From positions 1-21,895 of the IMG/VR virus record IMGVR_UViG_3300047552_000251: a DNA stretch of 21,895 nt. One strand, written 5' to 3'. Of this stretch, positions 66 through 21,717 are shown in pieces (position 1 is the stretch's first letter; every line of letters begins with the position of its first letter). Below the pieces are notes generated by a model. It was given only the letters and a program-made list of their open reading frames with translations. It was not told the DNA's origin and did no database searches. This stretch comes from a virus. A program made the translations under genes and the position numbers.

Positions 66-1538
66 ATGGCTTATAATTTAGCTAGAAATTCTCGCGTATT
101 CTTCACTACTAACGTAAGTACTGCTACTGGAGCCGTAGTTACTGATGGTTCCGTACCTTTCAGCGTAACTAACTGTTTCGAAGTACAAGTTCTAGATGGT
201 TTCTCCTTCTCTCAAGGTACTAACCAGACTACTATCGCTATTAACGAAGCAGGTTCTACACCTATCCGTGGTCAGCGCGCTTTCAATACTGCTCTTAATC
301 CAGTTGAAATCAGTTTCTCTACATACATCCGTCCTCGCGTAGCTTCTAACCAAGCAACCGCCGAAGAGCGTGTACTGTGGAATGCCCTTATGGGTACTGT
401 AGCTGTAGACGGTCTAAGCGGTGTAACTTCAGTAACTTTAGGTGGTACTCCTTCTACTGCTACTCGTGCAGATACTAATACTGGTACTGTTACTATCACT
501 GGTACTTCTTTGACATATGCAGGTATTTCTGCAAATGACATCGTTACTATCAAGGGTGTTACAGGTACTGGTGCTACTTACTGGAATCAACCAGCTAAGA
601 TCGTATCTCTGTCCGGAACGGCCATTGTAGTTAACTACCTAACAGCCCCTCCAGCCGCAGCAGGCCTAACTTCTCCAGCATTTACTGGTGCTAAGTTTGA
701 TAAAGCAGCTTGGGTTGAAAATCCAACAGCTTCTGGTGTTGTTACTTCTTACAGCCAAGTTACTACTGCTCAGTCTAATCGCAACCAGCTTCAGACTTTC
801 GGTATGATCTTCTTGGTTGATAGCACTTGGTACGTTATTGATAACTGTGCTATGGATAGCGCAACTATCGACTTCGGTCTAGATGCAATTGCTACTGTAG
901 CTTGGACTGCCAAGGGTACTAAACTACGTCAGGTAACTCCTTCTGTAACTGGTGTAGATCTTAATGCAGCTAACCCAATCTTTGCAACTTCTGGTGCAAT
1001 GCAAGGTACTGCAGTTGGTAAGGTAACTACTGCTAACTATATCACTAACAAGTTGTCTACTGTAACTCTACAGAGTAATATTGGTGGTCTGCTTGGTACT
1101 GCATATACTGTAGTTCTGACTGGTGGTAACATAGCTATTAGTAATAACATTAACTATGTTACTCCTAATAACATCGGTACTGTTAACCTTCCAATTGGTT
1201 ACTACACTGGTGCGCGTGGTATCTCTGGTACTATGAATGCGTATCTACGTACTGGCTCTGGTCAGGCAGCTGATCTGCTTAACACTATGTTGAGCAACAT
1301 CGCTACAGCAGCAGAAACTAAGTACAAGTTGCAACTTGAAGTTGGTGGTTCTAATAACGGAACCCGTGTAGAACTAGAAATGCCCGGTGTATCTCTAGGT
1401 GTTCCAAGTATTGATATTGCTGACGTTGTTTCTACAGCTATCACGTTCAATGCTCAAGGTACTAACTCTACCACTTCTGGTAATACGTACGATATTGAGA
1501 ACACTAACGATCTATCTGTTCGTTACTACTCTCTATAA
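66..1538 (+). CDS. major tail tube protein, probable tandem (duplicated) tube fold
   Basis: Codes for 490 residues, starting at an ATG preceded by AAAGGAA at a 5-6 base spacing. The protein is Thr/Gly/Val/Ala-rich, mostly beta, with no signal peptide or membrane segment. Position directly before the G/T-type chaperones and the tape measure fits the major tail protein that polymerises into the tail tube. It is about twice the size of lambda gpV. Two halves look related: residues 66-110 resemble 376-411 (Pro-Ile, Gly/Arg-rich strand, Tyr-x-Arg, Leu-x-Asn-x-x-Met), and 255-285 resemble 432-466 (a strand, then Ser-x-x-Ile-Asp, then strand-Lys/Gln-Gly-Thr). The first half carries an extra Thr-rich insert at about 113-230. 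Codon choice is narrow (GGT, ACT, GTA, GTT), as expected for an abundant structural protein. Family assignment rests on context and fold-like pattern; there is no single diagnostic motif. Confidence 0.85.
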   Translation: MAYNLARNSRVFFTTNVSTATGAVVTDGSVPFSVTNCFEVQVLDGFSFSQGTNQTTIAINEAGSTPIRGQRAFNTALNPVEISFSTYIRPRVASNQATAEERVLWNALMGTVAVDGLSGVTSVTLGGTPSTATRADTNTGTVTITGTSLTYAGISANDIVTIKGVTGTGATYWNQPAKIVSLSGTAIVVNYLTAPPAAAGLTSPAFTGAKFDKAAWVENPTASGVVTSYSQVTTAQSNRNQLQTFGMIFLVDSTWYVIDNCAMDSATIDFGLDAIATVAWTAKGTKLRQVTPSVTGVDLNAANPIFATSGAMQGTAVGKVTTANYITNKLSTVTLQSNIGGLLGTAYTVVLTGGNIAISNNINYVTPNNIGTVNLPIGYYTGARGISGTMNAYLRTGSGQAADLLNTMLSNIATAAETKYKLQLEVGGSNNGTRVELEMPGVSLGVPSIDIADVVSTAITFNAQGTNSTTSGNTYDIENTNDLSVRYYSL

Positions 1539-1599: not shown

Positions 1600-2034
1600 A
1601 TGTCAGAAACCGTAAGTCTTAAAAGCCTGCTAGTTCCCTCTAAGTCTACCGACGTAGAGTTTCCTGGTTACGAAGGCTTCAAATTAAGTTTGTCTTTCCT
1701 ATCACGTGAAGAACTCACTAAGATTCGTAAGAAAGCTACTAAGACAGAATTCAAAAACCGTCAACCAGTGGAAACACTAAACGATGAACTATTCCTATCA
1801 CTGTACGTATCAGCATGCGTCAAAGGTTGGGATGGTCTAAAGTTCTCCTATCTTGAGCAACTTGCACCAGTAGATATCTCTGCACAAAAAGCAGATGACT
1901 GTCTTGGATACTCACAAGAAAACGCACTATACCTAATGAAGGCCAGTGCAGATTTCGACGCTTTTGTTAGTGAGACCGTAACTGATCTAGCTAATTTTCA
2001 GCAACCCAGTGGACAGAAGTCAGTGACCAAATAA
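1600..2034 (+). CDS. tail assembly chaperone, G-like
   Basis: Codes for 144 residues. The protein is acidic/basic mixed and soluble, with no membrane segment. It sits between the major tail protein and the tape measure, where siphophages encode the gpG-type chaperone that coats the tape measure before tube assembly. Residues 28-70 (Leu-Ser-Leu-Ser-Phe-Leu-Ser-Arg-Glu-Glu-Leu-x-Lys-Ile) and the Trp-Asp-Gly-Leu segment near 77 resemble this family's usual pattern. The start ATG has a moderate AAGGT Shine-Dalgarno about 13 bases upstream. The frame overlaps an open -1 frame (from 1995) that leads into the next gene, the arrangement used to make the G-T fusion. Function is inferred mainly from position and frameshift architecture. 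Confidence 0.75.
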   Translation: MSETVSLKSLLVPSKSTDVEFPGYEGFKLSLSFLSREELTKIRKKATKTEFKNRQPVETLNDELFLSLYVSACVKGWDGLKFSYLEQLAPVDISAQKADDCLGYSQENALYLMKASADFDAFVSETVTDLANFQQPSGQKSVTK

Positions 2035-2041
2035 GGTCATT
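1995..2041 (+). other. putative -1 ribosomal frameshift region joining the G-like and T-like frames
   Basis: The -1 frame is open from just after a TAA at 1992-1994 through to the 2064 gene, so a single -1 slip between 1995 and 2034 gives one continuous G-T polypeptide. The linker residues read sensibly (FSATQWTEVSDQIRSFF). No classical X-XXY-YYZ heptamer is present. The only good re-pairing site is the Phe codon TTT at 1996-1998, which can slip to TTT at 1995-1997. A hairpin (2022-2028 with 2035-2041) brackets the zero-frame stop. The frame geometry is clear; the exact slip site is uncertain. Confidence 0.5.
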
Positions 2042-2063
2042 CTTTCAGAATTCAGATGCAAAA

Positions 2064-2363
2064 ATGACAAAGGAGTCCTACTTGGAAATGTGCAAATTAC
2101 TTGGCACAGAACCAGTAGAGTCCGAAATACCAATAGAGTTCGAAGATCTTTACGATGAAGTACAGGAAGCAATTACTGTATATAACATGCTACAAGATAA
2201 CTGGGACACTATGAATGGTTTATATCTTGGAAAGATATTAAACGGTATAGTTGATATCTTTAGTATTGCTGAGATAGAGGATAGACAAACTTGTTATAAA
2301 ATTATACAATTACTTGATTCTAACAGAAGTAAGGTAATTAACGAAAAGAAGCCCGCTAAATAA
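2064..2363 (+). CDS. tail assembly chaperone, T-like domain (likely made as a G-T fusion)
   Basis: Codes for 99 residues as a free frame from an ATG that lacks an upstream Shine-Dalgarno. The pattern Tyr-Leu-Glu-Met-Cys-x-Leu-x-Gly-Thr-Glu-Pro followed by an acidic Pro-x-Glu-Phe-Glu-Asp-Leu segment resembles, from memory, the T-type chaperone half of siphophage G/GT pairs; I could not search it. AAAGGAG at 2069-2075 could serve an alternative ATG at 2088, but spacing is long (12). In lambda the T part is never made alone and appears only by -1 frameshifting; the phase here (frame of 1600 minus one) allows the same. The last codons (EKKPAK and stop) lie within the terminator hairpin and are repeated exactly at the end of the next gene. 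Confidence 0.75.
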   Translation: MTKESYLEMCKLLGTEPVESEIPIEFEDLYDEVQEAITVYNMLQDNWDTMNGLYLGKILNGIVDIFSIAEIEDRQTCYKIIQLLDSNRSKVINEKKPAK

Positions 2364-2374
2364 GCGGGCTTTTT
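2343..2374 (+). repeat. direct repeat copy 1 (32 bp): gene end plus terminator
   Basis: Identical over 32 bp to 3131-3162. It encodes the C-terminal EKKPAK and stop of the T-like gene and the whole terminator hairpin. Both copies are read in the same frame by their respective genes, so they flank the endonuclease gene like the scars of an insertion. Confidence 0.95.
2349..2374 (+). terminator. rho-independent terminator after the T-like gene
   Basis: Arms 2349-2357 (AAGCCCGCT) and 2363-2371 (AGCGGGCTT) make a 9-bp GC-rich stem with a 5-base loop, followed by a T-run. The stop codon lies in the loop and stem, so the hairpin overlaps the coding end. Confidence 0.9.
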
Positions 2375-2395
2375 AATAGGTATAAAATATTCATC

Positions 2396-2424
2396 TTGAC
2401 AGAACACCCCTATAAGAGTATAAT
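2396..2424 (+). promoter_or_regulatory. promoter P1, consensus sigma70, for the homing endonuclease
   Basis: TTGACA (2396-2401), 17-bp spacer, TATAAT (2419-2424): an exact sigma70 match. Expected transcription start is about 2430-2432, giving a short leader before the ATG at 2459. It lies directly after terminator 1 and is the first of three related promoters in the window. Confidence 0.85.
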
Positions 2425-2454
2425 ATATTGTATATAAAAAAATTTTGGGGTGTT
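2403..2454 (+). promoter_or_regulatory. inverted repeat around P1; putative read-through hairpin hiding the endonuclease ribosome binding site
   Basis: AACACCCC (2403-2410, inside the promoter spacer) is perfectly complementary to GGGGTGTT (2447-2454, just before the start ATG). The AT-rich 36-base loop contains the -10 box and the expected start point. An RNA reading in from upstream contains both arms and could hide the GGGG ribosome binding site. An RNA started at P1 has only the second arm. Confidence 0.6.
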
Positions 2455-2458
2455 GATA

Positions 2459-3151
2459 ATGTCTGATCGTGGAATATATGCTCTTTACTGGGAAGAGCCC
2501 GCCTTAGTATATATTGGTAGAGCCATTAATACGCTAAACAGATTTAACAGGCACATTAATGATTTAAAAAATAATAAACACTGTAACTACAAAGTACAGG
2601 ATGCTTATAATAAATACGGAAAACCCTCACTTATACCACTATCCTACGACTATAGTGAGGAAGCTTTATGGATAAAAGAGTTTAATACTACAGTAGATGG
2701 TTTAAATATTACTAGTGGTGGAGACGGGGCCGGAGAAGGTGTAGATAACTCTTCCTCTAAGTATTCCAAAGCAGTAGTATTAAAAGTTTTTTCTTTACTA
2801 TATAAGTCAGACTTATCATATAACTTCATTAAGGATAAGTTATCAGTTCCTTTAAGTTTAGTTAAAGACATTGCTATAGGGGATAGGCATACTTGGTTAA
2901 GTAGTGTATACCCAGATAAGTACTCACTAATGCTTAATAGACTCCCTAGTAGAGTTAATTCAAACTCTATACGTAATAAATATACACTAGTACTACTAAA
3001 GTCCCCTACAGAAGAAATACATAAAATTACTAGTATAAAAGAGTTCTGTACCGAATACGGCCTTAACCCAGGAAATATTAGTAGTCTAATATCTGATAGA
3101 TTTAAAAGTAGTAAAGGATGGACTATATATGAAAAGAAGCCCGCTAAATAA
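2459..3151 (+). CDS. GIY-YIG homing endonuclease (free-standing)
   Basis: Codes for 230 residues. I chose ATG 2459 over an upstream in-frame GTG (2450) that lies in the GGGG ribosome-binding arm. The N-terminal GIY-YIG nuclease domain (residues 1-90) shows Gly5-Ile-Tyr, Tyr18-Ile-Gly, Arg28 and His32, a catalytic Glu67/68 before Trp-Ile, and the closing Gly-Leu-Asn-x-Thr-x-Gly-Gly. Residues 104-148 look like a helix-turn-helix. Residues 190-223 fit an IENR1/NUMOD1-type repeat (Ser-Ile-Lys-Glu-Phe, ending Lys-Gly-Trp-Thr). Such enzymes cut a site in phage genomes lacking the gene and copy it in by repair. The last residues (EKKPAK) come from the 32-bp repeat shared with the T-like gene. It looks intact. 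The target site is not visible; the neighbouring intergenic site is the likely one. Confidence 0.9.
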   Translation: MSDRGIYALYWEEPALVYIGRAINTLNRFNRHINDLKNNKHCNYKVQDAYNKYGKPSLIPLSYDYSEEALWIKEFNTTVDGLNITSGGDGAGEGVDNSSSKYSKAVVLKVFSLLYKSDLSYNFIKDKLSVPLSLVKDIAIGDRHTWLSSVYPDKYSLMLNRLPSRVNSNSIRNKYTLVLLKSPTEEIHKITSIKEFCTEYGLNPGNISSLISDRFKSSKGWTIYEKKPAK

Positions 3152-3162
3152 GCGGGCTTTTT
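3131..3162 (+). repeat. direct repeat copy 2 (32 bp): gene end plus terminator
   Basis: Exact copy of 2343-2374. It supplies the final codons and stop of the endonuclease gene and the terminator. Sequences on either side differ between the copies, so the repeat has sharp edges. Confidence 0.95.
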
Positions 3163-3163
3163 T
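3137..3163 (+). terminator. rho-independent terminator after the homing endonuclease
   Basis: Arms 3137-3145 and 3151-3159 form the same 9-bp stem as terminator 1, followed by a run of T to 3163. It insulates the tape measure promoter from endonuclease transcription. Confidence 0.9.
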
Positions 3164-3184
3164 ATTGCTCAATAATTTTTATCC

Positions 3185-3213
3185 TTGACATTAACTACCC
3201 CGAGTGGTATAAT
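3185..3213 (+). promoter_or_regulatory. promoter P2, consensus sigma70 with extended -10, for the tape measure and tail tip genes
   Basis: TTGACA (3185-3190), 17-bp spacer, TATAAT (3208-3213), with TGG before the -10 (an extended -10 element). The 18 bases at 3174-3191 are identical to 21084-21101 at promoter P3. With a terminator just upstream, P2 is probably the main promoter for the tape measure-M-L-K-I-J chain. Confidence 0.85.
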
Positions 3214-3225
3214 AGGGGTAGTTAA
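3191..3225 (+). promoter_or_regulatory. perfect 11-bp inverted repeat across the P2 -10 box
   Basis: TTAACTACCCC (3191-3201) and GGGGTAGTTAA (3215-3225) are perfectly complementary and enclose a 13-base loop containing TATAAT. The expected start (about 3220) lies in the second arm. It could be an operator for a dimeric repressor or, in read-through RNA, a hairpin. Confidence 0.75.
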
Positions 3226-3227
3226 CA

Positions 3228-3233
3228 ATGTAA
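3228..3233 (+). other. start-stop element (ATG TAA) downstream of P2
   Basis: An ATG lies 9 bases after the GGGG of the second arm, the same spacing as in the other two promoter modules (8 and 9), but TAA and TAG follow at once. It is either a leftover of a module that once led a gene or a minimal upstream ORF in the tape measure leader. The real tape measure ATG is 32 bases further on with its own Shine-Dalgarno. Confidence 0.4.
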
Positions 3234-3259
3234 TAGCGTGGTTTCATGAGAGGCAAATT

Positions 3260-6200
3260 ATGGCCAATGACATAAAAGTCAATCTAGCGGTATCCGATGG
3301 TGGTACGTTAGACGATCAAATTAAAAAAGCAAGAGTACTATTAAAAGAGCTTAATGCTATAAAAACTGTATCTAAAATGCAGAATACAGGAGCTCTTTCC
3401 CAAGGTCGCAACGATATGACCGATGTAGGGGCCAATCGCTTAGCTAAAGGTATTCAAGGGGCCACCGGTGCAGCAGGTCGTGACTTTGCTAAACAAGCAC
3501 AAGGTCTTGGTGGTTTAGTACACGTATATGCTACATTTGCTGCTAATATATTCGCAGTTAGTGCAGCTTTTACAGCACTATCAAAAGCCGCAGATTATGA
3601 TAATATGATCAAGGGGCTTGATCAGCTAGGCGCATCTAGTGGTAAAAATCTTGGTACCATGGCAAAAAATGTTACAGCCCTTACAGATGGGGCTATTAGC
3701 TTAAAAGAGTCTATGAGTGCAGTAGCACAAGCCTCTTCTGCCGGTATGAGTGGGCAGCAAATAGAGCGCATGGCTTTAGTAGCTAAGAAAGCGTCACAAG
3801 CTTTGGGTAGAGATATGACGGATTCTATTAACCGTCTATCACGTGGTATTACAAAGATGGAGCCGGAACTACTAGACGAACTAGGGATCTTTACTAGAGT
3901 AGATCGTGCTTCAGCAGACTACGCACGTAGTGTAGGTAAGTCCGTAAATGCCCTTACTGATTTCGAAAAACGTCAAGCATTTGCTAACGCCGCATTAACA
4001 GAAGCAGAGAAGAAGTTTGGAGCAATAAACCTATCTGCCAACTCTTTTAGTAAGCTTCAAGCCTCAATAACAGATATATTATATCAAGGCGGAACTTTAC
4101 TAAACAAGGTATTAAACCCTATAGCCGAAATACTGTCTAATAGCCCAACAGCTTTAGCAGCAGGATTATTAGGGATAGTTGGTATACTAGTAAAACAAGC
4201 ATTACCCGCTATTGCCAATATGAGACAGGGTTTGGCTGAGACAGCAGAACTAACAGGTAAAATAGCTGCCAATAGAGCTGCTCAAGCTAAAGCAGGTAGA
4301 ACTGGAGAGATTAAAGCCCTAAGAGACTCCATAGAGTTAGAGGCTGATAAAAGAGCCACTGCTATGGAGGAGTTAGCAAATAAGGCAAATAAAAAATCCT
4401 TCAGAGGGTTGGATCAGAATGCTAGATCTGTGCTTGACGAAGTAGATGCGAAAAAGATAACAGATGCTCAGATAAAAGCTCTAGAAGCTAAGGCTGGGGC
4501 AGGTACTAAAACAGCGAAAATGTATGGCCAGATAGCAGAAGCAGCTAAAAAAGCAAAAGAGGCCGAAGATGCGTGGGCCAAAGCTAACCAAGCACTAAAA
4601 ACTGAAGAAGGTAGAAAACTACCTTGGTATTCTACAGAAGCCATCAATAAAAGATTAGCAGAAGTAGCACAAGCAAAGGCTACTAGAGCTCAAATAATTA
4701 GCTCCGCGGCAGATGAGGCATCTGTAACCGGATTTACTGGAGGCATGGCAACGTTAGCTTCTGGTATTGAGAAGGCTAAGAAAGAGGCTAAAGATTCTGG
4801 AAAAGAGTTTGGTAAGTTCCAAACAGCTCTGGCTTATACTCAAGGTACCGCTGCCGTAGTAGCAACAAAAATAACATCTGTAGTATCCTCTCTAGGGGCT
4901 ATAGGTATGGTTATTGGTGTTGTAATTGGTGCTTTTGAGCTAGTATATAGCTGGTTATCTAAAAATTCTAAGCAATTAGTAGATTTTGATAAAGCTTCAG
5001 AAACACTAACTAGTTCTATAGATGGATTAGGTAGAACACTCGACTATTTAGCATCTAAAAGCCCCCTAGAACAACTAAGTGTAGATTCTATTAATGCTAG
5101 AGCTACTGCTATTTATGAACTTTCAAATAGTTTTGAATCTCTATACATTAAGTTTAAGAAGCTACAGAATACAGAAACAAGTTGGCTAGATGATACAGTA
5201 GACTGGGTTAAAAAGATAGGAAACTGGGATGTATCTTCTACAATGGCCAAGGATATGTCACAGGCAGCTAAGACGACATTAGATGCTATTACGGATCCAA
5301 AGAGAGCAGATAAATTAAGGGCATCATTAGAAGACCTAGTAGGTTCTAAGACTTTATCGGCAGCTTCATTTAAGAAACTAATAAATAAAAATGACGAGGA
5401 ATCTCTTAAGAAGTTTAATACTTTATTAAAAGAGAACGGTATAGAGGTAAGTAATGCTGCCTCCAAAGTAAAAGAGTATACAGACCAAGCAGATCAGACT
5501 ATAAAGACCCAACAATCTCTACTTACTAGTTTTATGCCTTCTGATAATTTATCAAAGTTCGCTATGGATCAGATAAAGATGGCTGAAAAGTTAGCAAGCT
5601 CATTATCTGATACCGAGAGTTCAATGTCTGCACTATATGAGACAATGAAAGACTCTCAAAGACTATCTATACTACCTGAGAAAGCACTTTCTGATCTAAT
5701 GGAAGCAGCCCCAGCGATAAGAAAGTTCCAAGAGGAGCTTGGTACTCAGCAAAATATAAAAGACATACAGCAAAAAGCCCTAACTTTAGAAGAAAAGAGA
5801 GTTTCTGAAAATGGTCTAGGAGAGCAGTATCAAGGTAGACTAAAGGCAATAAGAGCCGTAATAGCAGAGAGTAACGAAAAGATCTTAACTCTACAAGATA
5901 AGGCAACTCAGTACGTAAAACAAACAGCAGCGGCTTTATATGACTCCGGAGCACAGAAACTAACCCTAGCACTAAGTAATTCTTTAGCAAAAGCGGCCTT
6001 AGAGTACCAAGCAGCTATTGCGGGGGTAGTTGGTGGTGAAGAAGGTGCAAAGTTAGCAGCTGATATAGCAAAACAGCAGGTTGCTGCAGAAATTTCTCTT
6101 GTTAAAGCTTTATACGCCCAGTCTGAGCAAGTAGCCAAAAATACTATGGCTATAGAGATACGTAATAATAGAGACACCAGTGAGCTAGCTGATAAGAAGC

Positions 6201-8473
6201 TAAAAGCCGGGGGTCTATCAAAATCAGAAGAGCTGGAACAGACTAACATACGTAATAAAGCCAATAGCCGAGTAGAGGAGTTAACTAATGCCTTAGCCTT
6301 TGTTAATAAAGGAGGCAAGAGCCTAGCTTCTAGATTACGTGCAGATAAGGAAAGCGCTGATAGTTCTAAAGATGAATCAAAGATATCAGCATCAAACGCA
6401 CTACGAAGTGACGTAGGAAGCCTATCTTTAGCACAACTTGGTAGAGATAACCAGTTAGCTGCCCTATCAAGTAAGATGCAAACTATAGAAGCCAAAAAAC
6501 AGTTCGATCTTATCGAAGAGCAGTGGAAGGTTATTAGTAAAACTGCAGACGAAGAAAAAGATAGACTAGCAACTCAGTTAAGACAAGATGAGCTAACATC
6601 CGCAAATTCTATTACTTTAGATCAAGATTTAGAGACACGTATCCAGGCTACAAAAGAACAGATTCGTGCTATAGATGCAGTAAAAGCTGAATACGCTATT
6701 CTACAGGATATACAAAAACTGGAGAAGTACAAGCAGGTAGGTGGTAAAGCAGAGTACGCTGATAATAGACTCAAAACTCTAAATAGTAATCTGGCCTCAG
6801 TACGTAGAGGTAGGGAAGACCAAGAGGCAGCTGATGCAGAAGCCGAGCGCATCAAATCCATAGATCTAGTAATTGCCAAATCCCAGAAGCAGCAGGCCTT
6901 ACTAGAAGTACAGAAACGTACTATAGAGGTACTGGCTACTATGGAGCGTGCTACTACTGCCGAGCGAGCAAAAGCAGAACAAGATTCCTTTGATATTACT
7001 AGAAGAACTCTACTACTTAAAATAGAGGAACTAGAGGAAGAGAAAAAGAAAAGTAAGGATGCGGCTACTATACTACAAGCAGAACTACGGGTGGAAGAAG
7101 CAATAGCCCAATTCAGAAAAGAAGCAGAAGCCTCTCTATATCGTCAACTAGATCTTCAAAAGAAGTTAGTAGACGAAGGTGGAAAAAATACTATGCCAAT
7201 ATCTGATATGGTAGGATTAGAGGCTGACCGTAGAGCGAAAGACTTCCGTAAGAACCTAAAGAGTTCCGTGGATTATACTTTTGATGCTGTATATGCAGGG
7301 ATGGACGCAGGTATTGATGAATTATTTACTAAGATGCAGCAAGGTCAGAAAATCGCCTTTAAGGATATAGTAAATACTGTAAGAAATGCAATGTCTAATG
7401 TTTTTGCTGATGCTGCTAAAGAATACATGAAGATGGGTGTACGTGATATGATCTCTGGTATGTTTGGAGGTCCTAAAACTTACGAACAAACTATGACAAG
7501 CCTAACAGAAAAGATAGAGAAGAATACTAGTATAATGGCAAGCAAAACAGGCTCTACCAGTACTAGTAAGCTCGGAGGTCAGTCAACCTCTACATATACC
7601 AACCCAATCGGCCCCGCCAGCGCGGGAGTTGACCCTAAGACAGGGCAAACGGACTGGGAGAAGCAAGCTGCCCTAGATGAGGCATGGTTGGAAGGAACCG
7701 ATACTGTTGGAGCAGCTGCATCTACAAGTAAGGATGCAGCAGGAGGCTTCTTACAATCAGCTTCTGGTATGTGGTCTGCGGTTAAAGACTTTGCTACTGG
7801 TAATGCCACATTCTCACAAACTTTCGGTAGAATTATTGATGGTTTTGGAAATATGATGCCCTCCCTATTTACAGGAATCTATGGAGCTATTGCGAGTGCT
7901 ATGGGTGCTATAGGTGGCGGTGGAGGAGGTGGTGGAGGAGGTATCTTTGGAACCCTATTAAACCTAGGAGTTAGTTATCTTACTGGAGGCTTTGGGGGCT
8001 CAACTGCAGCAGGCCCAAGCGCTCTCGCTATGGGTACTGGTAATAGTACTATGGCAGGTACTGGAGGAAGCTGGTTAGGGAATACCTCAGGTTTTAAACT
8101 TGGGGGTTTTGCAAAGGGTGGTGCTTTTGAAGGAGCAGAAGGTCTTTCCAAGTACTCTAACTCTATCGTATCAAGCCCAATCAGCTTCGCCTTCGCGAAG
8201 GGCGGAGTTCCTAATATGGGAATAGCTGGAGAGTCTGGACCAGAAGCAATTATCCCATTAAAACGTGATGCCACAGGTAATCTTGGTATTCGTGGTGGTG
8301 GTGAGATGGTTAATAATATTGATATTAATATCTCTATTGAAGGAGGCTCTGAGAAGGATAATGGTGGTGGCATGTCTAAGGATATGGCAGGATTGCTTGG
8401 TAACTCTATTAAAGCAGCCGTAACACAAGAGCTAATTAAACAATCTAGACCAGGAGGCCTATTGGCAAGATAA
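3260..8473 (+). CDS. tail tape measure protein
   Basis: Codes for 1737 residues. The start is ATG 3260, preceded by GAGAGG at 7 bases; an in-frame TTG at 3185 is inside the -35 box of P2 and cannot be the start of a P2 transcript. The protein is long and helical, rich in Lys, Glu, Ala and Gln (coiled-coil heptads over much of 340-540 and 780-1420). Hydrophobic segments lie near 84-110, 300-315 and 539-565. There is a Gly-only run near 1552-1561. The C-terminal end has two Phe-Ala-Lys-Gly-Gly motifs, the second followed by Gly-Glu-Ser-Gly-Pro-Glu-Ala-Ile-Ile-Pro-Leu (near 1643-1668), a hallmark of lambda-family tape measures. It sets tail length and is ejected to help DNA cross the envelope. 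At the usual 0.15 nm per residue the tail would be about 260 nm, an inference. Confidence 0.96.
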   Translation: MANDIKVNLAVSDGGTLDDQIKKARVLLKELNAIKTVSKMQNTGALSQGRNDMTDVGANRLAKGIQGATGAAGRDFAKQAQGLGGLVHVYATFAANIFAVSAAFTALSKAADYDNMIKGLDQLGASSGKNLGTMAKNVTALTDGAISLKESMSAVAQASSAGMSGQQIERMALVAKKASQALGRDMTDSINRLSRGITKMEPELLDELGIFTRVDRASADYARSVGKSVNALTDFEKRQAFANAALTEAEKKFGAINLSANSFSKLQASITDILYQGGTLLNKVLNPIAEILSNSPTALAAGLLGIVGILVKQALPAIANMRQGLAETAELTGKIAANRAAQAKAGRTGEIKALRDSIELEADKRATAMEELANKANKKSFRGLDQNARSVLDEVDAKKITDAQIKALEAKAGAGTKTAKMYGQIAEAAKKAKEAEDAWAKANQALKTEEGRKLPWYSTEAINKRLAEVAQAKATRAQIISSAADEASVTGFTGGMATLASGIEKAKKEAKDSGKEFGKFQTALAYTQGTAAVVATKITSVVSSLGAIGMVIGVVIGAFELVYSWLSKNSKQLVDFDKASETLTSSIDGLGRTLDYLASKSPLEQLSVDSINARATAIYELSNSFESLYIKFKKLQNTETSWLDDTVDWVKKIGNWDVSSTMAKDMSQAAKTTLDAITDPKRADKLRASLEDLVGSKTLSAASFKKLINKNDEESLKKFNTLLKENGIEVSNAASKVKEYTDQADQTIKTQQSLLTSFMPSDNLSKFAMDQIKMAEKLASSLSDTESSMSALYETMKDSQRLSILPEKALSDLMEAAPAIRKFQEELGTQQNIKDIQQKALTLEEKRVSENGLGEQYQGRLKAIRAVIAESNEKILTLQDKATQYVKQTAAALYDSGAQKLTLALSNSLAKAALEYQAAIAGVVGGEEGAKLAADIAKQQVAAEISLVKALYAQSEQVAKNTMAIEIRNNRDTSELADKKLKAGGLSKSEELEQTNIRNKANSRVEELTNALAFVNKGGKSLASRLRADKESADSSKDESKISASNALRSDVGSLSLAQLGRDNQLAALSSKMQTIEAKKQFDLIEEQWKVISKTADEEKDRLATQLRQDELTSANSITLDQDLETRIQATKEQIRAIDAVKAEYAILQDIQKLEKYKQVGGKAEYADNRLKTLNSNLASVRRGREDQEAADAEAERIKSIDLVIAKSQKQQALLEVQKRTIEVLATMERATTAERAKAEQDSFDITRRTLLLKIEELEEEKKKSKDAATILQAELRVEEAIAQFRKEAEASLYRQLDLQKKLVDEGGKNTMPISDMVGLEADRRAKDFRKNLKSSVDYTFDAVYAGMDAGIDELFTKMQQGQKIAFKDIVNTVRNAMSNVFADAAKEYMKMGVRDMISGMFGGPKTYEQTMTSLTEKIEKNTSIMASKTGSTSTSKLGGQSTSTYTNPIGPASAGVDPKTGQTDWEKQAALDEAWLEGTDTVGAAASTSKDAAGGFLQSASGMWSAVKDFATGNATFSQTFGRIIDGFGNMMPSLFTGIYGAIASAMGAIGGGGGGGGGGIFGTLLNLGVSYLTGGFGGSTAAGPSALAMGTGNSTMAGTGGSWLGNTSGFKLGGFAKGGAFEGAEGLSKYSNSIVSSPISFAFAKGGVPNMGIAGESGPEAIIPLKRDATGNLGIRGGGEMVNNIDINISIEGGSEKDNGGGMSKDMAGLLGNSIKAAVTQELIKQSRPGGLLAR

Positions 8474-10203: not shown

Positions 10204-10793
10204 CAATTTTACTTTATGGCAAACTAGGAAAAAAGTTTGGAAAGGTACATAAGTACAATGTATCTTCAGTAGCCGAAGCAATTCGAGCACTCTGCGCTAC
10301 AATCAAAGGATTCAAGGAAGATCTTAATATTGGAAGCTACAAAGTACTTGATGGCTCACTCACTTCTTATAACGAAAAACAATTAGACTCACCAATTAGT
10401 AATAGAAATACCCTTAGAATTGTGCCTGTAATTGAGGGGGCCGGAGGGGGTGGAGGAATATTTAATATAGTACTTGGTGCTATATTAATATATGTTAGCA
10501 TGGGTGGCGCTAGTTCCCTCCTAGTTGGTTGGGGTGCTAGTACAGGTGCAGCTGCAGGCGTAATGTCTTTTGGTATCTCAATGGTACTTGGAGGAGTATC
10601 TTCCCTCCTATTCTCACCAGACCCTGTACAACAATCCTCTTATGAGTCTGTAGAGAATGCCCCATCATTTGCCTTTAATGGGGCAATTAATACAACCCAG
10701 CAGGGCAACCCTGTGCCAGTTTGTTATGGTAAGCTGATTGTAGGTTCCCAAGTTATTAGTGCAGGACTTTCTGTAGAGCAGACAACAGTATGA
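10197..10793 (+). CDS. I: tail tip assembly protein, gpI-like
   Basis: Codes for 198 residues; ATG 10197 overlaps the K gene by 7 bases. The N-terminal 75 residues look like a ubiquitin/beta-grasp fold (Thr-Ile-Leu-Leu-Tyr-Gly-x-Leu-Gly-x-x-Phe-Gly). A Gly-rich stretch and two hydrophobic segments follow (about 85-140). The C-terminal Pro-Val-x-Tyr-Gly-x-Leu-x-Val-Gly-Ser-x-Val-Ile-Ser-Ala-Gly is typical of gpI. In lambda, gpI is needed for tail tip assembly, but its place in the finished virion is less clear. Confidence 0.93.
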   Translation: MLTILLYGKLGKKFGKVHKYNVSSVAEAIRALCATIKGFKEDLNIGSYKVLDGSLTSYNEKQLDSPISNRNTLRIVPVIEGAGGGGGIFNIVLGAILIYVSMGGASSLLVGWGASTGAAAGVMSFGISMVLGGVSSLLFSPDPVQQSSYESVENAPSFAFNGAINTTQQGNPVPVCYGKLIVGSQVISAGLSVEQTTV

Positions 10794-13700
10794 GTTATAT
10801 AGCAGGTTCGGGAGGAGGTGGCTGCTTCAAGGCAGGCACCCTAGTACAGAAGCCTAACGGCCTTACAACTCCCATAGAACAAATAAAAGTTGGAGATATT
10901 GTACTATCTTTCGACGATAAAGGAATTATTAGTGAGTCTGTAGTTGAGCAAGTACACGTACATACAGAACCAGAACCTATAATTAAAATCGAGTTCTGGA
11001 ATGGCAGTATTCACTTAACTCCAAATCACTGGGTACTAAACCAATACTACTCTTTTGTAGAGGCTGGTAGCTTAACCATAGAAGATGCTTTAGTAGATGG
11101 GATGGGGCATTTACGTCCTATAAAGTCAATTATACCACAACCTTCCGAAACTGTGTATAACTTAACAGTTTCAGATAATCATACGTTTATTGCAGACAGT
11201 ATATGTGTACATAACGGTGGTTATAGGAATAGATTTCCAGTAGCAGGTTCTGGTGGTGGGGGTGGTGGAAAAGGTGGTGGAGGTGGAAGAGCACCTGTAG
11301 AGACACCTGATAATCTTCACTCAAAACAGTACGCTAGAGTACTAGATTTAGTCTCGGAAGGCGAAATCGAAGGGCTGGTAAATGGTTTAAAATCAGTTTA
11401 TCTAGATGATACTCCTATTGAGTCAGCAGACGGAACCCTAAATTTTAGTGGTGTATCTGTAGTTACACGAAATGGTACTCAAGCTCAGGACTATGTGCCC
11501 GGTTTCGGTACGGTAGAGGCCGAAACTTCTGTTTCCGTAGAAGTAAAAAGCGCTACTCCAGTTACTAGACAGATAACTAATACTAATGCCGATGCAGTAA
11601 GAATTACTCTCAGCACTCCAGTGTTATCTTTTCAAGACCCTAATACCGGAGACCTATCAGGTTCGGAAATACAGCTTAGTATTGATATTAATGATAATAA
11701 TACAGGATGGAAGTCCTATCCTATTCGTCAAGTATCAGGAACTATTGCTTCTGATGGTTCACAGGCTACGGGTACCTCTTCTATTTTATCATACTCCTTC
11801 GATATTAACTGGACTGGCCTTACTAATCTTACTTTACAGAACATTACATACAAAGTAGAATATAAACTAGTATCATCCGGAACCTGGCTAAGCTTAGGTA
11901 CTTTTACTGAAAGTGGTACAGGCAACAATGTAGCCAGTGAAGTACCTATATATGATGGTGAAAATGTAAATATAGTTGGCTATACGACTCAGTATACTAT
12001 AACACCCCCAAGCTACTCTAGAAGATTCTCCGCCAGTGTATCAGAGGGTATATATGAGTTCAAGGTAACTAAACTATCTGGCAGTGGAATGTCTGCTTTA
12101 TCCGCTATATCTACCACAGCTAATACTGGAATAGATGTTATTAGTGGTAAGACTACTAGTAAGTATCAGAGAGCATACAGACTTGAACTGGAAGGTACTG
12201 GCCCTTGGCAGGTACGTGTTACAAAAGTAACACCAGATGCCACAACTTCTAATCTACGAAATAATCTTTATTGGGATAGTTATACAGAGATAGTAGATTC
12301 CAAGCTATCATACCCTAACTCGGCTCTAGTAGCCATCTCCGTGGATTCGGAGCAGTTCTCTAATATACCTACCCGAGGTTACGAGATTAAAGGTGTTAAG
12401 GTACGTATACCAGATAACTATAATCCTATTACTAGAATATACACAGGTATCTGGAGTGGTACCTTCGCATACGCCTGGACAGATAATCCAGCATGGTGCT
12501 TCTATGATATTTGTACAAATACTAGATATGGGCTAGGAGACTACCTATCTGAAGGTCAAATAGATAAATGGACACTATATTCTATTGCACAATATTGCGA
12601 TGAACTAGTACCTAACGGTTTTGGTGGTCAGGAGCCTAGATTCACTTGTAACATGTACCTTCAGACTAGAGAAGAGGCATTCAAAGTAATTAATACTATG
12701 GCCGCAATATTTAGAGCTATGGTATACTGGGCCTCGGGAACCTTAGTCCCGGTACAAGATGCACCTACAACACCTGTTGACTTATATACTCCAGCCAATG
12801 TAATTGATGGGATGTTTACGTATCAGGGGGCAAGTGCTAAAGCCATTCATACAGTAGCACTAGTAAGCTGGAACGATCCAGCAGATATGTATAAATCTAA
12901 AATTGAGTATGTTGAAAACACTTCTGCTATAAATAGATATGGTGTCATTCAGACAGAAATAAACGCTATTGGATGTACTTCCAGAGGGCAGGCACATAGA
13001 GTAGGCGAATGGTTATTATATACTGAACAGAATGAGTCTGAGACTATAACATTTAAGACCGGACTTAGTGGTTGTAAGCTATCGCCGGGTAATACTTTTA
13101 AAGTATCTGATCCTACTAGAACTGGTACCAGATTAGGTGGCAGAGTTTCAGCAGCAACAACCACTGAGATTACTATAGATAGCTCTGTAACTATTGAACC
13201 AGGAATAACATACTACCTATATACTATACAGGAAGATGGAACAGTACTAAGTAGAAACATTAGTAATTCTCCAGGCCCTACTAACATACTAACCTTAGTC
13301 AGTGCACTTCCAAGTGCTCCTATAAAAGACTCGATGTGGATTTTAGCCCATACTCAAATGGAGCCAGAAACTTGGAGAGTAATAGGAGTAAAGGAAGATG
13401 ATAATAATACAGTAGAAGTATCTGCATTATTATATAATGATAGTAAGTACTCTCATATAGAACAAGATACACTATTAGACAATGTTAATAGTAGTGGAAC
13501 ACTATACCAAGCCCCACCGGCCGTATATAATATAACGGTAGTTGAATCATTATATTTAGTAGGTCTAGGTGTTGTTGGTACTAGAGCTACACTTTCTTGG
13601 TCTACCACAGAAGGTGCCTCTTATTATACTATTAAGTATACTAAAGCTAACGGTAATCCTGTTGAAATAACCTCAAGGTATTCATCAATAGATATTGCAC

Positions 13701-21094: not shown

Positions 21095-21123
21095 TTGACA
21101 TGAGATACCCCAAGTGGTATAAT
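21095..21123 (+). promoter_or_regulatory. promoter P3, consensus sigma70 with extended -10
   Basis: TTGACA (21095-21100), 17-bp spacer, TATAAT (21118-21123), with TGG before the -10. The spacer ending (TACCCCAAGTGG) differs from P2 by one base, and 18 bases upstream match P2 exactly. It drives the 21157 gene and what follows. No terminator is visible in front of it. Confidence 0.85.
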
Positions 21124-21152
21124 AGTGTAGATTAAAATATTTGGGGGTTCTC
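21102..21152 (+). promoter_or_regulatory. inverted repeat around P3; putative read-through hairpin
   Basis: GAGATACCCCAA (21102-21113) pairs with TTGGGGGTTCTC (21141-21152) at 10 of 12 positions, enclosing the -10 box. The GGGGG is the only Shine-Dalgarno-like sequence before the ATG at 21157 (spacing 9). Same layout as at P1. Confidence 0.55.
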
Positions 21153-21156
21153 CTTT

Positions 21157-21717
21157 ATGGACGAAAAAACCGAGAGCAGTTATTTATACAAAAAGATAGA
21201 CTCTATTGAGCACAGGTTGGAGAGCCATGTTACAAAGATCGAACAGCGTCTCGACCAGTTGGTACACATTATGTCAGCAGTAGCCGCCCTTCAAGAACGA
21301 GAATCTCGTAATGCGGATGGAATTAAGGAAGTTAAGTCAACCTTAAAAGAATCCTTCGAAACCTTCCAAAAGGCTCTAGAAAGAATCCATAAGCGTTTAG
21401 ACGAGCTACACGATGAGCAGGAGAAGGAAATTGATGCCTGCGTAGTTCGAGACAAAGAGCTAAACATTAAGGTTAGTAACGTGCAGACAGAAGTTGCCAA
21501 ATGGCGGGATCGTGGTGTTGGATTATGGCTCGGCCTATCTCTTCTAGTATTTGTTATTCAAGGATACGGTGGCATGGTACTATCATCTTATATGGAAGAG
21601 TATAAGGCCACCAAAATAGCTATTGTAGAGATTAGCAAGAAGCAGCTCGAGACTTCACAAGAAGTTGAAAGACTAGTAGCTAAGCTGTCTGCTAACCAAG
21701 ATAAGGGGTCAAGATGA
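21157..21717 (+). CDS. coiled-coil protein with one membrane segment
   Basis: Codes for 186 residues. Residues 8-115 are charged heptad-type coiled coil (Ile-Glu-x-Arg-Leu-Glu; Ile-Glu-Gln-Arg-Leu-Asp-Gln-Leu; Ile-His-Lys-Arg-Leu-Asp-Glu-Leu). Residues 119-143 form a hydrophobic membrane segment flanked by Arg-Asp-Arg and Glu-Glu. A second helix follows to 180. The shape resembles XhlA-like or other phage membrane accessory proteins with an N-terminal coiled coil and a single membrane span, but I do not recognise a family. A lysis-related or membrane-anchoring role is only a guess. It starts a new transcription unit at P3. Confidence 0.75.
   Translation: MDEKTESSYLYKKIDSIEHRLESHVTKIEQRLDQLVHIMSAVAALQERESRNADGIKEVKSTLKESFETFQKALERIHKRLDELHDEQEKEIDACVVRDKELNIKVSNVQTEVAKWRDRGVGLWLGLSLLVFVIQGYGGMVLSSYMEEYKATKIAIVEISKKQLETSQEVERLVAKLSANQDKGSR

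Follow-up and report, generated by a model that had tools for sequence, protein, structure and literature searches.

A promoter-bearing hairpin predicted to silence read-through RNA of a GIY-YIG homing endonuclease gene in a siphovirus tail module

The tail module and the endonuclease leader

The window, by which the whole stretch of DNA analysed is meant, is a viral record 21,895 bases long and contains a siphovirus tail module, to which lambda-like L, K, I and J proteins belong in addition to the tail genes of Table 1. The reading frame of the second chaperone lies at -1 and stays open across the end of the first (1995-2034), so that a programmed frameshift as in lambda G/GT is likely, and the N-terminus of the J tail tip protein (10790-11270) has a Hint/intein-like domain (C12 ... 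VHN-G; Pfam PT-HINT, Hint). DNA relatives of the tail region were absent among 50,697 phage records and a close relative of the tape-measure protein was not found in IMG/VR; neither search yielded an uninvaded relative.

Table 1. Genes and leader features of the window
Feature	Position	Strand	Remarks
Major tail protein	66-1538		
Tail assembly chaperones	1600-2363		
Terminator and spacer leader, first copy (repeat D1)	2343-2395	+	includes terminator hairpin 2346-2374
Endonuclease promoter, TTGACA-17-TATAAT	2396-2424	+	consensus sigma70, 12/12
5' arm AACACCCC of masking hairpin	2403-2410	+	between -35 and -10; confined to read-through RNA
3' arm GGGGTGTT	2447-2454	+	Shine-Dalgarno (SD) of endonuclease gene
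GIY-YIG homing endonuclease, 230 aa	2459-3151	+	between chaperones and tape measure
Terminator and spacer leader, second copy	3131-3183	+	85%
Second perfect promoter	3185-3213	+	before tape-measure gene; spacer holds TTAACTACCCC
Perfect inverted repeat around -10 box, 11 bp	3191-3225 (arms 3191-3201, 3215-3225)	+	TTAACTACCCC/GGGGTAGTTAA
Tape-measure protein	3260-8473	+	
Third perfect promoter	21095-21123	+	motif TACCCCnAGTGGTATAATAG in common with 3185
Imperfect hairpin masking SD of 186-aa gene at 21157	21102-21152 (arms 21102-21116, 21138-21152)	+	

The gene lying between chaperone and tape-measure genes had been read as a GIY-YIG homing endonuclease in an earlier note on this DNA, and this identity was borne out by a match to the homing endonucleases of phrog_314 (E 1e-14, residues 5-226). 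The protein carries GIY, YIG, R28, H32, E68/E74 and N83, and its Pfam GIY-YIG score of 21.0 bits is slightly below the cut-off of 22.6.

The upstream gene is closed by a GC-rich terminator hairpin with a U-tract (about -19 kcal/mol). The endonuclease promoter follows, with its -35 box at 2396-2401, a 17-nt spacer and its -10 box at 2419-2424, and transcription would be expected to start at about 2430-2432. The two arms are complementary at 8 of 8 positions and enclose a 36-nt loop containing the -10 box; RNA made from this promoter would lack the 5' arm. The SD, GGGGUG (2447-2452), lies 6 nt 5' of the ATG at 2459, with a computed anti-SD pairing of -8.6 kcal/mol. Terminator, own promoter and perfect stem, which together had led the gene to be called triply insulated, were thus all located, as were the -10 box in the loop and the right arm serving as ribosome binding site. 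The T4 late box TATAAATA is absent from this promoter, whose TTGACA and TATAAT are host-type. It does not belong to the late class of phage promoters, which is a trait of the T4 cases and separate from the silencing step.

By computed folding, the probability that the SD is unpaired was about 0 in read-through RNA and 0.08-0.67 in own-promoter RNA starting ~7 nt past the -10 box, where the SD is only partly open because weak pairing with the coding region is possible. The energy needed to open the SD was 10.0 kcal/mol in read-through RNA and 1.7 kcal/mol in the gene's own RNA; the value recomputed for T4 segB, 9.4 kcal/mol, is comparable to the former. Sequestration of the SD by the stem in the long RNA is therefore predicted, and to this extent the silencing of read-through RNA put forward in the earlier note is supported in silico. 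Shuffled sequences gave a perfect stem of 8 bp or more around the -10 box with p 0.006 (mononucleotide) and 0.02 (dinucleotide). The minimum free energy (MFE) of the leader was marginally lower than that of shuffles (p 0.04-0.08), a weaker result than the stem test, and ranking by MFE across the window was uninformative. With these values the endonuclease site taken alone would be only moderate evidence.

Three promoter leaders and a duplicated cassette

Exactly three perfect promoters are present in the window (2396, 3185 and 21095), and all three have ACCCC in the spacer and complementary GGGG downstream. The hairpin is not specific to the endonuclease here, since the two other perfect promoters share this plan. 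At 3185 the repeat leaves the SD of the tape-measure gene uncovered, and inverted repeats of this kind may accordingly serve another job. At 21095, GAGA-CCCCAAGTG pairs with TATTTGGGG-TCTC, and SD opening was computed at 14.5 vs 6.5 kcal/mol; this SD, of the 186-aa gene, was the strongest among the starts checked (-10.1 kcal/mol) and is masked in the computed read-through RNA. Masking of an SD is thus predicted at two of the three leaders, those of the endonuclease and the 186-aa gene, and not at that of the tape measure. The 186-aa protein is of unknown function and its gene adjoins one with a weak C92-peptidase match; as a guess, it may be a lysis gene in the manner of T4 gene e.

The endonuclease gene is flanked on both sides by a 53-nt direct repeat, 85% identical, and EKKPAK followed by a stop is the C-terminus of both the upstream chaperone ORF and the endonuclease, encoded in each case by the respective leader copy. 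One T-A pair, with its T in the left and its A in the right arm, was lost as a unit between the two paralogous leaders (AACTACCCC/GGGGTAGTT at 3185, AACACCCC/GGGGTGTT at 2396), which preserved the stem. The endonuclease leader, being an 85% copy of that of the next gene, probably derives from the terminator-promoter cassette of the phage itself. The simplest history would be a duplication of the phage's terminator-promoter leader around the endonuclease, presumably in that direction. Comparison of the endonuclease start GTTGATAATGTCTGATCGTGG with the tape-measure leader GTTAACAATGTAATAGCGTGG, arms included, gave p 0.02.

After its repeat, the tape-measure leader (3185-3243) has GGGGTAGTTAACAATGTAATAG, in which an SD-like run comes with an ATG and an immediate stop codon. 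A dead start codon is not claimed here, the homology of GTTGATAATGTCTGATCGTGG and GTTAACAATGTAATAGCGTGG past the arm being suggestive but short of significance (p 0.13-0.17). The cassette was not found in other phages by motif search; the pattern TTGACAN6ACCCCNNGTGGTATAAT matched five contigs with one identical sequence, which has no matching right arm and was set aside as unrelated.

The plan common to the three promoters could also be that of a DNA operator, with ACCCC ... GGGGT as half-sites for a phage regulator around the -10 box and RNA pairing as a by-product. This possible reading is unlikely. It would account for ACCCC and GGGG at all three perfect promoters, for TACCCCnAGTGGTATAATAG at both 3185 and 21095, and for a repeat at 3185 that is clear of the SD. 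However, it leaves unexplained the distance between the arms, which varies among the promoters (13, 36 and 21-26 nt), and the change of both arms together, for beyond CCCC/GGGG the arms differ yet still pair, which would be unnecessary for a fixed dimer site; moreover, other endonuclease genes repeat the layout with unrelated arms that take in the SD (see below).

I-TevI-like autorepression, in which the endonuclease would bind its own leader, resembling the homing site, and shut off the promoter, is less probable again. I-TevI operators do resemble homing sites (PMC2988022), the leader matches at 85% the sequence at the gene's other border, a stretch in which the uninvaded insertion site would lie, and such repression could work jointly with the hairpin; but the homing site here is not known, no uninvaded relative having been found, and the same promoter motif occurs at 21095, an unlikely homing site.

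Predicted masking of Shine-Dalgarno sequences at other endonuclease genes

Masking of the SD in read-through RNA, the reading preferred here, was also predicted elsewhere. A GIY-YIG relative (L029) has -35 TTGTCT, 17 nt and TAAAAT; between the two boxes lies CTCCAT, to which the SD ATGGAG pairs. At L027 the promoter lies within a stem that includes the start codon, a weaker case (4.5 vs 0.7 kcal/mol). A scan of 123 loci placed the layout at HNH-type endonuclease genes, with a 14-bp stem at L001:230 and 13 bp at L031:665 and 5496. The clearest case is L132, an HNH homologue of the L001/L031 family found after the scan, where TTGACA is followed by TACAAT in the loop, the stem has 15-16 bp, its right arm includes AAGGAGAG and SD opening costs 13.6 vs 0.9 kcal/mol. 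Both L029 and L132 were reached through protein homology alone and inspected afterwards. The earlier note had suggested looking in the 5' regions of related endonuclease genes for conserved pairing; the layout does recur there (L001, L029, L031 and L132, more weakly L027), but orthologous covariation is not available, as no close relative of the phage carrying the same leader was found. No promoter-hairpin leader was seen in those cultured relatives of the HNH family that have any promoter-like site.

The shift in SD opening between long and own RNA was surveyed over 153 promoter-gene pairs from the collected loci (18 endonuclease genes and 135 others), listed irrespective of pairing, with the caveats that the loci were gathered around endonuclease genes and that the L001/L031 family was first spotted by the layout scan. 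The window's endonuclease gene, with a shift of 8.2 kcal/mol, ranked fourth of the 153; a shift this large occurred in 0.16% of cross-paired controls drawn from all sites and in 2% of those keeping the gene's right side. The four largest shifts all belong to homing endonuclease genes (window, L001, L031 and L132), whose stems are unrelated in sequence. A shift of at least 8 kcal/mol was found at 4 of 18 endonuclease genes vs none of the 135 others (Fisher p 1.4e-4), and one of at least 5 kcal/mol at 6 of 18 vs 5 of 135 (p 3.7e-4). The median shift over all 18 endonuclease genes was not significantly larger (p 0.13). That a C-rich promoter motif complements a G-rich SD by accident is the least probable account, for although single-site shuffles reach only p 0.006-0.08 and the pairing in the window was first picked out by eye, the cross-pair null is 0.0016, the layout recurs in homologues chosen irrespective of pairing, and large shifts are enriched at endonuclease genes.

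Endonuclease relatives without a promoter of the window's type often have another SD-masking RNA, a three-way junction with a loop-SD pseudoknot; this RNA is absent from the window. At L001 (two copies), L002, L025, L030 and L031 the leader consists of P1, a conserved hairpin (AGGGUAGCUCCCCU in most) and P3, the loop of which pairs with the SD. The exact core pattern CGAAAAGGGTAGCNCCCCTG was present in 96 viral stretches of IMG/VR (L034:4196-4265 and 95 more) and in only 2 stretches of 257 Gb of prokaryote genomes. Of 42 cores selected by position alone, 40 had a fully paired P1 (null 0.30; 13 distinct sequences) and 35 a fully paired P3 (null 0.10; 31 distinct sequences). In 45 of 52 cases (null 0.08) the P3 loop pairs with at least 6 bases whose end lies mostly 7-9 nt 5' of the ATG, and the loop covaries with the SD of the next gene. 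Endonuclease VII/HNH (phrog_1035) was matched by 48 of the 69 genes behind this RNA; the remaining families include GIY-YIG, HNH_3, LAGLIDADG, PD-(D/E)XK and DUF559, so that at least five nuclease families, mostly homing-type endonucleases, are represented. No Rfam 15 family matches the RNA and no description of it was found by literature search; it looks like an undescribed riboregulator. At L093:337-782 a GOLLD RNA lies in a viral tRNA array, beside an endonuclease gene with a pseudoknot leader.

The chances seem about even that phage homing endonuclease genes across unrelated folds generally have SD-masking leaders of at least two architectures, namely the promoter-in-hairpin of the window and the conserved P3-loop-SD RNA found with HNH/endonuclease VII, GIY-YIG, LAGLIDADG, PD-(D/E)XK and DUF559 genes, the latter possibly a switch sensing a phage-specific signal.

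A probable read-through silencer and its known counterparts

Silencing of read-through RNA is probably the best explanation of the endonuclease leader. RNA passing through the terminator at 2346-2374 would carry both arms, AACACCCC would pair with the SD GGGGUGUU and ribosome loading would be blocked, so that transcription of the upstream tail operon would give no endonuclease. RNA from the gene's own promoter, starting about 28 nt 5' of the ATG, would be without the 5' arm and would leave the strong SD usable. Endonuclease output would then be proportional solely to this promoter, on which terminator and hairpin together would make it dependent. The leader would be one member of a cassette also placed before the tape-measure gene and the 186-aa gene, and would have reached the endonuclease through duplication of the terminator-promoter leader. 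Protection from read-through is a safer claim than late timing, since with a host-type consensus promoter the arrangement alone gives insulation but no lateness; a regulator would be required to set the timing, and the common ACCCC motif is a candidate for this.

By this reading, a type of control so far known for a handful of T4-type genes would also operate in other phages and with host-type promoters, and a selfish gene could borrow the phage's terminator-promoter cassette and stay quiet inside an essential tail operon. Its recurrence at endonuclease genes with differing arms would supply a simple rule predicting when such genes are silent, and the relatives suggest a further RNA, apparently undescribed so far, that masks the SD of endonucleases from several unrelated folds.

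In T4-type phages, PeSL cassettes of promoter and stem-loop are repeated between genes and mark module borders. The window has three promoter and stem-loop copies, and the motif search for them in other phages matched one unrelated sequence. The leader hairpins of T4 genes e and soc silence a late gene on early read-through RNA through SD pairing and resemble the leader of the 186-aa gene at 21157; they differ from that of the window's endonuclease in preceding non-endonuclease genes and in having a T4 late promoter.

Hairpin control of this kind has been described for I-TevI, I-TevII, I-TevIII and segB of T4 and for mobE of Aeromonas phage Aeh1, and the promoter-in-hairpin arrangement in T4 and Aeh1 has genetic support (PMC2988022, PMC3014915). 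As segB and mobE are free-standing genes (PMC2988022, PMC3014915), the novelty that the earlier note saw in finding this logic in a free-standing gene falls away. Its argument that the nuclease would be costly if mistimed is weak, because loss of the I-TevI hairpin left T4 viability unaffected beyond intron splicing (PMC2988022, PMC3014915). The likeness to I-TevI stands as regards the SD-masking hairpin with a promoter inside it: as with I-TevI, segB and mobE, the gene encodes a homing endonuclease, the SD is predicted to lie in a stem limited to the long RNA, and the gene's own RNA would be without the 5' arm. It fails at the promoter, which is a phage late promoter in the T4 examples and a perfect host sigma70 promoter in the window. 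The window also differs in a promoter common to structural genes, an upstream terminator and a location in a siphovirus tail module. The type of silencing hairpin is thus known, and the twists here are the host-type promoter and the leader common to structural genes.

The transposase gene of IS200 is likewise a mobile gene, insulated by a terminator of impinging transcripts and an RBS-occluding stem-loop (PMC3196728). IS200 is an insertion sequence, and a promoter inside the masking stem is not claimed in that account; of the known systems compared, it comes nearest to the triple insulation seen in the window.
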